Below are positions 11,999 to 14,436 of a DNA stretch of 64,000 bases, in pieces; the first letter of the stretch is position 1, and each line of letters begins with the position of its first letter. The stretch spans positions 62,001 to 126,000 of the forward strand of contig NZ_PHQQ01000014.1 in the NCBI RefSeq assembly GCF_002909235.1, in the 5' to 3' direction. The notes under the pieces are model-generated. The model was given only the letters and a program-made list of their open reading frames with translations, did no database searches and was not told the origin of the DNA. A program made the position numbers and the translations under genes. The stretch is from Arenibacter catalasegens (lineage in GTDB: Bacteria > Bacteroidota > Bacteroidia > Flavobacteriales > Flavobacteriaceae).

Positions 11999-12399
11999 TA
12001 TCGTTTGTTTTTTATCAATTGTTGTCGAAATGACGACATGTATCTAGGCCTCCTGGCAAGGAGAAATTCATCTACAAATTTTTCGTGACGAAAAAGTAAA
12101 GATGATATAGAGTTATATATTCTTGTATCAAATTTACATCATTTCATACAAAGTTTTCTTGGGCAATTTTATCTTTCAGTTCTAAGGAAAAATGTGACAT
12201 CAGCCTAAAAAGCAGCTACTTTTATCGATGCCTGTAGTCTATCTAACCTACTATAATTTTTTAAACTAGGACGAATATTTTATGTGTGTTGGCAATATAT
12301 CTTTAGGTATGACATATTTTTCTACATATGTGAACTCTTTATAATGGTTATAATAATCAAAATTGCTCTTTTCTTCTATCTTTAGGAAAAAGATTGTGC
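11999..12399. other. Intergenic, no gene seen
   Basis: About 400 bp between two divergent genes (SGNH hydrolase and the RsbQ-like hydrolase). It is AT-rich and contains no plausible coding frame or RNA gene that I can support. It should hold the promoters of both neighbours, but no convincing -33/-7 pair at the expected spacing was found. Confidence 0.5.
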
Positions 12400-13209
12400 A
12401 TGGATGTTTTAAAAAGGAATAATGTAAATGTAATTGGGGACGGAACCCAAGTTATTATGTTTGCGCACGGTTTTGGATGCGACCAGGTAATGTGGAGATT
12501 TATTACTCCGGCTTTTATTGCAAATTATAAATTGGTTTTGTTCGATTATGTTGGCTGCGGTAAATCTGTTACGGGGCAATATAGTGAGGATCGTTACGGT
12601 TCACTTTACGGTTATGCCCAAGATGTTCTTGAAATATGTGATGCTCTAAACCTCGAAAACGTAATTTTTGTAGGGCATTCCGTAAGTTCAATGATAGGCA
12701 TTCTAGCTTCCATTCAACAACGGGAATTATTCCGATCATTAATTCTAGTATGTCCATCCCCATGTTATATTAATAAGCCGGGCTATTTTGGAGGCTTTGA
12801 AGAAAAGGACCTATATAGTCTTATGGAGGTCATGGAAAATAATTATGTTGGCTGGGCCAGCTTTCTGGCGCCGGTGGTCATGAAGAACGCAGAAAGGCCA
12901 GAACTTGTGCATGAACTTGAAGAAAGTTTCTGTTCCATGGACAAGGAGATTACAAGTAATTTTGCTAGGGTCACTTTTTTTTCAGACAACAGAGAGGATC
13001 TTTCCAAGGTAAAAGTTCCAAGCCTCATTCTTCAATGTTTGGAAGATGATATTGCCAATGAAAAAGTAGGGACATATGTACACCAAGAATTAAGAAATAG
13101 TGTGATATACCATTTGAACGCTACTGGACATTGTCCACATATGAGTCATCCGGAAGAAACAATTAAATGCATTCAGCGATATTTACAGACTGAAGATAAT
13201 CATACCTAA
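12400..13209 (+). CDS. RsbQ-like alpha/beta hydrolase
   Basis: About 269 residues from the ATG at 12400 (a TTG two codons upstream is possible). It strongly resembles Bacillus RsbQ throughout: FAHGFGCDQVMWR, LFDYVGCGKS, YAQDVLEICDALNL, FVGHSVSSMIG (nucleophile S94), SPCY and GGFEE, FFSDNREDLSKVKVPSLILQC, and GHCPHMSHPEETI. The triad is S94, D217 and H244. In Bacillus, RsbQ is needed for energy-stress activation of the PAS phosphatase RsbP, presumably by acting on a small hydrophobic ligand; plant KAI2/D14 receptors share the fold. The next gene, 24 bp downstream, starts with an RsbP-like PAS domain, so the receptor pair is conserved but feeds a kinase here. Confidence 0.92.
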   Translation: MDVLKRNNVNVIGDGTQVIMFAHGFGCDQVMWRFITPAFIANYKLVLFDYVGCGKSVTGQYSEDRYGSLYGYAQDVLEICDALNLENVIFVGHSVSSMIGILASIQQRELFRSLILVCPSPCYINKPGYFGGFEEKDLYSLMEVMENNYVGWASFLAPVVMKNAERPELVHELEESFCSMDKEITSNFARVTFFSDNREDLSKVKVPSLILQCLEDDIANEKVGTYVHQELRNSVIYHLNATGHCPHMSHPEETIKCIQRYLQTEDNHT

Positions 13210-13233
13210 TTAAACATTTGAAGCTAAGAATCA

Positions 13234-14436
13234 GTGAATATTAATCCTCCCTGTTATATGTTTTCTTTTTCGGTAGACGGCTGTCTTACCGATATAAACC
13301 AATTGATGCTGGGTCATTTGGAATATGAAGACTTGGAAGTAATAGGCCGATTGCGGTTTGAAGACCTGCTAACTGGTGGAAGCCGGATTTTTTATAAGAC
13401 CCATTTCCTGCCTATGTTAATGATGCAGGGTAAAGTAGATGAAATGTTTTTATCCTTATGTTCTAAATCTGGCAAGGAATATCCGGTTCTCATGAATATG
13501 TCCCTTTCCGGCAAAACGGAAATATCTACCGTACAGGCTGTTGGACTTCAAATGGCCAAGCGCAATAAGTATGAAAAAGGAATTCTGGAGGCTAAGCAAG
13601 CGGCAGAAAAGGCACTTGGAGAGAATGCACTTCTGTTGAAAATGAAGGCAGATTTGGAAAGAAATGAGCAATTATTGGAGCACCAATTACGTGAACTAAA
13701 ACGAATTAATCAGGAGCATGTTGAATTTAATAAAGTGCTTTCCCATGACATGCAGGAACCCTTGCGAAAAATACACTTGTTTGCAGGTCTTCTTGAAGGT
13801 AAAAAAGAGAAGGAGGAGGGTGTAGGAGTAGAGTTTACATCCTATCTCAAAAAACTTCGAGACTTATCGGAATATTCTCGGGACTTATTGATGCGGTTAC
13901 AACGCTTTCATTCTTTGGAAAATAGGATGAATGACTTCACCGTGGGTAACTTGGAGGAAATGATCAAAGCCGCCTTGGCAAGACTAGGTATCCCTGAAAT
14001 TCTGCCAGATTTAAGTCAATTGAGGGTACAAGAAGTCCGTGGTGATATACCTAGGTTGACTAGAGTGATGAGGGAATTGTTGGCCAACGCATATCGGTTC
14101 CGAAATCTGGATAAACAGTTGTACATTGAAATTTCATCGGAACTGATTATGGATAATTATTATAAATCTGTAGAAGATGCCTACCGGTATACGGACTTTA
14201 TCCAGATTCGGATCAAGGACAATTCTAAGGGATTTCCCAATAATGCCCAGGGTAAAGTTTTTGGATTGTTACAGAAATTTCACGTTGAAAGTGGTAGGGG
14301 TTTAGGGCTGGCTTATTGTAAAAAGATAGTTGGTTTGCACCAAGGTCATATTTTAATGAAACCCATTGCAGGCGGAGGATCACAAATTATTATTATGCTA
14401 CCTTGTATACCGTCAGGAATAAGGGCAGATAAATGA
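13234..14436 (+). CDS. PAS sensor histidine kinase paired with RsbQ-like hydrolase
   Basis: 400 residues from a GTG. The PAS domain spans about residues 5-105. The text FSVDGCLTDINQLML, DLLTGGSRIFYKTHFLPML and EMFLSLCSKSGKEYPVLMNMS, and the exit MAKRNKYEKGILEAKQAAEKAL, follow the N-terminal PAS and linker of Bacillus RsbP. A coiled coil (about 112-165) leads to a HisKA box LSHDMQEPLRKI (H171). The ATPase domain has N285 in ELLANAYRF, DNSKGF at 329-334 (usually DNGxGF) and GRGLGLAYCKKIV at 355-367. No receiver domain is attached and no response regulator is adjacent. RsbP carries a PP2C phosphatase at this position, so the output has been exchanged. Confidence 0.9.
   Translation: MNINPPCYMFSFSVDGCLTDINQLMLGHLEYEDLEVIGRLRFEDLLTGGSRIFYKTHFLPMLMMQGKVDEMFLSLCSKSGKEYPVLMNMSLSGKTEISTVQAVGLQMAKRNKYEKGILEAKQAAEKALGENALLLKMKADLERNEQLLEHQLRELKRINQEHVEFNKVLSHDMQEPLRKIHLFAGLLEGKKEKEEGVGVEFTSYLKKLRDLSEYSRDLLMRLQRFHSLENRMNDFTVGNLEEMIKAALARLGIPEILPDLSQLRVQEVRGDIPRLTRVMRELLANAYRFRNLDKQLYIEISSELIMDNYYKSVEDAYRYTDFIQIRIKDNSKGFPNNAQGKVFGLLQKFHVESGRGLGLAYCKKIVGLHQGHILMKPIAGGGSQIIIMLPCIPSGIRADK

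Follow-up and report, generated by a model that had tools for sequence, protein, structure and literature searches.

An RsbQ-PAS-histidine kinase pair in Arenibacter catalasegens and the kinase genes of its relatives

A gene for an RsbQ-like hydrolase lies directly upstream of a PAS-histidine kinase gene in Arenibacter catalasegens. This arrangement raises the questions of whether the two proteins form one sensor, whether the kinase output is new, and which protein the kinase addresses. We analyzed a stretch of 64,000 nt from contig NZ_PHQQ01000014.1, hereafter the window. Both ORFs were located as originally predicted, on the same strand and 24 bp apart. The features of the locus are as follows.

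12400..13209, + strand: rsbQ orthologue encoding an alpha/beta hydrolase of 269 aa (ORF, PDB search, pairwise alignment, alignment of relatives)
13210..13233, + strand: spacer of 24 bp between rsbQ and the kinase gene, with no terminator-like site listed within
13234..14436, + strand: PAS-histidine kinase gene, 400 aa, GTG start (ORF, Pfam, family profile)
13243..13548, + strand: RsbP-type PAS domain, residues 4-105 (PAS searches, signature residues, AlphaFold2 model)
13549..13713, + strand: helical, coiled-coil-like linker, residues 106-160 (model helix 113-191, heptad scan)
13714..13929, + strand: DHp (HisKA-like) domain with the phospho-acceptor H171 in SHDMQEPLRK, codon 13744-13746 (Pfam, motif alignment)
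13939..14409, + strand: CA (HATPase_c) domain with N285, D329, G1 box DNSKG and G2 box GRGLGL (Pfam, motif alignment)

The hydrolase and the PAS-kinase

The rsbQ gene runs from the ATG at 12400 to the stop codon at 13207-13209. A TTG at 12394 is a possible alternative start; in the Arenibacter matches L033-L037, the first residue corresponds to the one encoded at 12400. The closest named relatives of the protein, all from Arenibacter, are 74-85% identical. Consistent with the proposal that RsbQ is kept very closely, 144 of 261 aligned residues (55%) are identical to B. subtilis RsbQ, whose structure 1wom was matched in the PDB search with E=3.5e-96; the second-best solved match was the bacterial protein Olei00960, followed by the plant KAI2/D14 receptors. 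The catalytic triad had been given as S94/D217/H244. S94 and H244 stand, but the Asp aligned to D219 of B. subtilis is D216, and the triad is S94, D216 and H244 (S96, D219 and H247 in B. subtilis). The cavity and gate residues F25, V95, F133 and F193 are also kept (F27, V97, F136 and F196 in B. subtilis), and all seven residues highlighted by Nadezhdin, Brody and Price (2011; PMC3183031), namely F27, S96, V97, F136, F196, D219 and H247, are conserved in the window protein. The triad is intact in 88 of 89 RsbQ relatives, the exception being a sequence cut by the contig end.

The kinase gene extends from the GTG at 13234 to the stop codon at 14434-14436. The claim that it ends in a HisKA/HATPase kinase with H171 and N285 was right for both residues; in the Pfam search, HATPase_c scored 55.1 bits, over the cut-off of 26.4, and HisKA 18.3 bits, under the cut-off of 26.9, and no PAS match was returned. 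H171, N285, D329 and the G2 box are present, and Ser takes the place of the first G1 Gly, so that kinase activity of the window protein is not certain. The AlphaFold2 model, computed with 14 relatives (mean pLDDT 79.4; approximately 86-92 over residues 11-90), consists of a PAS fold, a single long helix spanning residues 113-191, a helical hairpin and a CA domain, with low confidence in the ATP-lid stretch 347-355. A heptad scan of the linker, run without a control, gave 75% hydrophobic a/d positions over 42 residues. Foldseek searches with the models of the window protein and of an eroded relative (see below) returned whole-kinase matches with low TM-scores, which are of little use for judging activity. 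The best solved match of the kinase core was 8f71, the kinase domain of the bacteriophytochrome RpBphP2 (E=5.5e-20). The core resembles those of phytochrome-like histidine kinases, a class with an HDLQEP H-box and stand-alone Rcp1/CheY-like receivers.

The second gene had also been proposed to keep the PAS domain of RsbP, and the comparisons agree. The window PAS alone (118 residues) matched the RsbQ-linked PAS of a Streptomyces SpoIIE phosphatase with E=1.5e-16 and that of a Paenibacillus GGDEF protein with E=2.3e-13. Among the host ORFs of loci L119-L185, a set that includes many sensor kinases but not every host PAS, it matched none better than E=2.8. The concern that it might align no better to the RsbP type than to random PAS domains was thus not borne out. 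The separation was less clear with a profile built from 32 partners, in which eight plasmid-borne partners reached 3.2e-18 or better, the GGDEF partners L065, L069 and L070 only 3.6e-7 to 1.4e-11, and host PAS proteins 2.3e-6 or worse. The L070 GGDEF partner matched the window PAS alone with E=0.28. The signature residues were placed by their published numbers and spacing (offset -3, then -2) rather than by alignment to RsbP. Residues C7, F10, L46, R51, F53, Y54, H57, P60, E70 and P84 of the window protein thereby correspond to C10, L13, L48, Q53, F55, C56, Y59, P62, E72 and P86, six of the ten being identical and four similar. Across 80 of the 83 distinct partners described below, the three broken genes left out, the Glu is kept in 78, P62 in 71, P86 in 69 and C10 in 67. 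The DIT motif at the PAS end is absent from the window protein, and a DIT-like triplet (D-I/V-T) is found there in 9 of 80 other partners. The family profile, the published signature residues and the AlphaFold2 model together identify the window PAS as one of RsbP type.

A published module with a patchy distribution

A PAS frame lies directly 3′ of rsbQ in 97 of 102 loci, same-genome duplicates and the window included, and downstream of rsbQ in 46 of 47 loci of named organisms. The five loci without it are L072, L091, L096, L097 and L099, of which L096 is cut by a contig end and L097 is a 35% match. The 97 pairs contain 83 distinct partner sequences, whose output classes were read from motif patterns and, for 19 of the partner proteins, also from Pfam. 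All 65 Bacteroidota partners are kinase-type by motif (62 unbroken and three broken), none having a GGDEF or SpoIIE/phosphatase output, and the 18 partners from elsewhere comprise 12 GGDEF proteins and 6 kinases. Plasmids also encode RsbQ, with matches in 74 plasmid records at E 1e-20; the ten plasmid regions viewed contain five kinase partners, two GGDEF and one SpoIIE, and in two no PAS partner was found. The conserved pairing and the kinase, GGDEF and SpoIIE partners support the view that RsbQ-PAS is a cassette found with different outputs.

The module is patchy across genomes, and its neighbourhoods differ. RsbQ matches were obtained in 16 of 299 genomes of the family (24 of 397 in a larger, overlapping draw), in 22 of 395 genomes of the phylum, in 4 of 9 and 2 of 3 genomes of two other genera, and in 9 of 299 genomes of Flavobacterium, the genus to which G444 was assigned because it shares an identical partner gene with Flavobacterium sp. 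7A. The Arenibacter genome G1045 gave no RsbQ match. The rsbQ homologues without a downstream PAS frame include L072, L091, L099 and L223, of which L072 and L223 are from Hymenobacter; in L223, a BLUF-domain gene adjoins the homologue on the opposite strand. In L017, from a genome that is 68% complete, an rsbQ relative of 38% identity is followed by a PAS-PAS protein with the look of an HWE-type kinase, which is counted among the 65 kinase-type partners.

The two genes could in principle be coincidental neighbours, a housekeeping hydrolase beside an unrelated PAS kinase. Such a reading would fit the lack of a regulator or target gene adjoining the pair, the five rsbQ loci without a downstream PAS frame and the presence in only 24 of 397 family genomes. 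The pair is nevertheless kept in 97 of 102 loci despite the differing neighbourhoods, the window PAS is of the RsbQ-linked type, and in B. subtilis the direct contact between RsbQ and the PAS has been shown by experiment (Nadezhdin et al., 2011). The possibility that the pairing is not conserved in relatives, against which the original prediction was to be checked, therefore did not hold, and the conserved pairs together with the PAS match (1.5e-16 against 2.8) led us to reject chance pairing, which we consider very improbable.

Modules of this kind have been described. Nadezhdin et al. (2011) reported 45 RsbQ/RsbP-PAS pairs, whose outputs are a PPM phosphatase in Gram positives, a histidine kinase in Gram negatives and a diguanylate cyclase in both, and proposed RsbQ and the PAS domain as a 'bipartite sensing module'. 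As defined in the text of that paper, the PAS protein follows rsbQ immediately, the RsbP-PAS is the most N-terminal domain, the coiled-coil linker has at least 21 residues, and the DIT motif is absent. Since the histidine kinase output was already listed in 2011, the kinase form is not new, and the claim that the novelty lies in it was dropped. The designation as an energy-stress receptor fares no better, because the same text calls the signal unknown and the energy assumption possibly gratuitous, the target being known only in B. subtilis. The window pair is a Bacteroidota member of the published RsbQ-PAS module, whose response to energy stress is unproven even for the Bacillus pair. The terms Bacteroidetes, Flavobacteri, Cytophaga, Spirosoma and Pedobacter do not occur in the text of the paper, its species figure 2 lying outside this count. 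What may be new is found in the relatives rather than in the window pair, namely ATP-site erosion and missing kinase starts; among open PMC papers, we found none that deals with the loss of the ATP site or with absent start codons in kinases linked to RsbQ.

The target of the kinase

As RsbQ is very close to its B. subtilis counterpart, the pair might feed a sigma-B-like partner-switching system as in Bacillus. However, its output is a kinase and not a PP2C phosphatase, and a search for SpoIIE-type phosphatases, positive in 5 of 14 control genomes, gave none in the host genome. The sigma-B link was rejected on this negative result, and we assign it next to no probability.

No response regulator was found in the window. 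The only PF00072 match on the contig lies approximately 25 kb from rsbQ, in line with the claim that none is adjacent. The three nearest host paralogues of the window kinase (C19, C82 and C39; E 1.8e-26 to 2.1e-16) each adjoin genes for single-domain receivers. A single-domain receiver also adjoins the pair in L022, L026 and L078, that is, in 3 of the 62 loci L018-L079, most of which have none next to the pair, and in one of the ten plasmid regions viewed (L226, from Bradyrhizobium). The receiver of L022 is most like that of C19 among the host receivers. The receivers beside the paralogous kinases and those adjoining the pair in these four loci suggest that the target of the window kinase is likely to be a stand-alone receiver protein.

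A genome-wide search for orphan regulators, which had been proposed as a check, gave four candidates, none of them tied to the window kinase: single-domain receivers with no HATPase_c match within 3 kb are located at C1:348801, C12:148418, C17:104049 and, below the cut-off, C15:10990. This list is rough because HATPase_c may miss LytS-type kinases. The receivers of C19, C82 and C39, which are most like the L022 neighbour, are not orphans.

Some receiver genes deserve separate mention. On the conjugative Bradyrhizobium plasmid pCC829_1 (L226 2490-4923), the receiver, rsbQ and the PAS-kinase gene stand in this order in one row. The single-domain receiver directly after the kinase in L026 (9507-9968) seems to lack the phospho-acceptor Asp. 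The host encodes three nearly identical single-domain receivers (C15:2475, C15:88002 and C3:139181), the first two of which are located on one contig beside similar kinase genes (C15:1445-5500 and C15:85400-91000), suggesting recent copies.

We consider it very likely that the window encodes a two-gene RsbQ-PAS-kinase sensor; its target would be a stand-alone CheY/Rcp1-like receiver whose gene lies in another part of the genome. In such a sensor, RsbQ would bind or act on a small molecule and, by analogy with B. subtilis, may contact the F-alpha helix of the PAS domain in the F53/H57 region, equivalent to F55 and Y59; direct contact in B. subtilis is lost on F55A, and two models have been put forward: in one the hydrolase supplies a reaction product, in the other it does the sensing itself (Nadezhdin et al., 2011). 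The change would travel along the putative coiled coil of the kinase dimer and set the balance of H171 phosphorylation, from which the phosphate would pass to the receiver. The 65 distinct kinase-type partners of the Bacteroidota provide a set for studying RsbQ-PAS contact residues and for the ligand search.

Start codons and ATP sites in the relatives

In nine unbroken distinct loci on the Flavobacterium/Gelidibacter side (L005, L046, L049, L050, L051, L055, L077, L106 and L112), the kinase frame contains no ATG, GTG or TTG from the preceding in-frame stop to the PAS core; in L005, a TTG occurs within the PAS. Relative to rsbQ, the kinase frame of these loci is shifted by +1, and six of the nine, like L045, have an ATT that overlaps the rsbQ stop. 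For eight sequences, among them L045, the pooled pN/pS upstream of the first ATG was 0.33 across 15 codons and 0.53 across the 11 codons preceding them, and the same 15-codon stretch read in the other frames gave 1.12 and 2.51. The low pN/pS in the kinase frame therefore indicates that the stretch is translated, via an unusual start or a frameshift. A programmed +1 frameshift was disfavoured, as the rsbQ stop is mostly preceded by TAT or CAT, codons that in our judgement would re-pair badly in the shifted frame; we thus prefer a start at the ATT that overlaps the rsbQ stop. In the window clade, the kinase starts are GTG in six of seven Arenibacter rows and TTG in L039 and three Zobellia rows, which hints at deliberately weak kinase translation. 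A promoter scan of the window locus did no better than shuffles (9 matches versus a shuffle mean of 9.9), and an Rfam search of the locus gave no match.

Kinase motifs were aligned for 32 kinases of 350-520 aa, L034, L038 and L044 being left out as they come from the same genomes as L018-L020. A tree was built from 49 of the 83 distinct partners, excluding GGDEF proteins, lengths outside 340-410 aa, L017 and L048. The window kinase falls in a branch of 30 rows supported at 98/95, the midpoint root serving for display only. Three labelled sets that have lost motif residues are each separated from the remaining rows by a well-supported branch. Within the 30-row clade, the H-box His is present in every row and the N-box Asn in 25 (lost in five); the G1 Asp is kept in 25 rows, the first G1 Gly in 10, the second G1 Gly in 23, and the first and second G2 Gly in 16 and 19, respectively. 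All seven motif residues are retained in a single row (L042), and 12 of the 30, the window among them, lack the first G1 Gly only.

The most eroded set consists of L006/L021, L007/L022, L053 (Pseudozobellia) and L054 (Maribacter). The Asn and both G1 glycines are lost in all four, whereas the His and the PAS signature are kept and some G2 letters remain. Pfam did not find HATPase_c in three of them and found it marginally in the fourth (E=0.047); among the partly eroded kinases, L046, L051, L050 and L079 pass the cut-off and L077 just fails. The RsbQ proteins beside the most eroded kinases keep all seven named residues, and the model of the most eroded form has a CA-like fold (mean pLDDT 78.6) that is weak at approximately 304-307 and 335-343. 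Values of dN/dS were calculated for 27 partner kinases from the tree set, leaving out pairs saturated at synonymous sites. In the most eroded set, they were 0.19-0.50 for CA (6 of 6 pairs), 0.10-0.19 for PAS (6 pairs) and 0.09-0.15 for DHp (4 of 6 pairs), and the median for CA in Arenibacter was 0.12 (15 unsaturated pairs of 21). The CA domain of the most eroded set is under purifying selection that is looser than that on its own PAS and DHp domains or on the Arenibacter CA.

As a control, the 63 HATPase_c domains of the host were inspected, and strict G1 and G2 patterns were both met by only 30 of them. Among the others are ATPases of different classes, which we read as gyrase, Hsp90 and MutL, as well as kinases in which a single motif varies. 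The clade is not unique in its partial erosion, because the host hybrid kinases C3:108686 and C2:44271 have lost G1 too; by eye, none of the 63 domains belongs to a kinase lacking N, G1 and G2 together. In L047, L048 and L052, all from assemblies of uncultured bacteria, the kinase gene is broken by an in-frame stop or frame change beside an rsbQ that keeps the named residues. Together with the G1 loss in the host hybrids, these broken genes indicate that part of the erosion may be decay.

These losses bear on the window kinase itself, which might stand at an early stage of erosion and, without self-phosphorylation, act under RsbQ-PAS control as a phosphatase or phosphotransferase towards a receiver charged by another kinase. 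The first G1 Gly is replaced in 20 of the 30 clade rows, the window included, and the His persists in all 30 although one row alone keeps the full set of seven residues. On the other hand, the window kinase and the 12 Arenibacter/Zeaxanthinibacter/Zobellia rows retain N285, D329, both G2 glycines and the second G1 Gly, HATPase_c scores 55.1 bits, the host kinase domain C15:84349 carries the same Gly-to-Ser change with the rest kept, and dN/dS of CA is low in Arenibacter (median 0.12). We therefore regard a window kinase incapable of self-phosphorylation as unlikely and favour the working RsbQ-PAS-kinase sensor described above. For the clade as a whole, we tentatively propose, as a possibility less likely than not, that the RsbQ-PAS cassette has repeatedly turned its kinase output into a non-catalytic, His-bearing DHp protein, a hydrolase-gated switch that acts by phosphotransfer or as a phosphatase on a receiver charged by another kinase. 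The window would then hold a form that is early in this course or still intact. If the eroded relatives are true non-kinases, they would represent a natural split of signal input from kinase activity, with the same hydrolase and PAS and no ATP site, and would permit a direct test of RsbQ-PAS control over dephosphorylation or phosphotransfer alone.

Among known systems, the RsbQ-PAS-histidine kinase modules of Gram-negatives (Nadezhdin et al., 2011) share with the window pair the order of rsbQ and PAS gene, the N-terminal PAS, a linker that in the window protein is helical and possibly a coiled coil, the kinase output and the signature, and the window pair differs from the modules as described there in nothing essential. 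The RsbQ-RsbP pair of the B. subtilis sigma-B pathway has an RsbQ 55% identical to that of the window, with all seven named residues, and the same type of PAS and linker; unlike it, the window pair ends in HisKA/HATPase instead of PP2C, and no sigma-B partner-switching phosphatase was found in the host. The phytochrome-like histidine kinases resemble the window protein in the kinase core (8f71), and its nearest host paralogues lie beside single-domain receivers, but the window protein lacks a photosensory module and has RsbQ-PAS as its input. The plant KAI2/D14 receptors belong to the same hydrolase family (PDB matches with E ~1e-59 to 1e-42) and likewise use a hydrolase for signalling. They work with other partner proteins and are not known to be paired with a PAS kinase, in contrast to the hydrolase of the window. 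Spo0B and ChpT are phosphotransferases in which the DHp His is kept and the CA-like domain lacks the ATP motifs. The eroded relatives, and only these, are like them in both respects, but are of independent origin and retain the RsbQ-PAS input.
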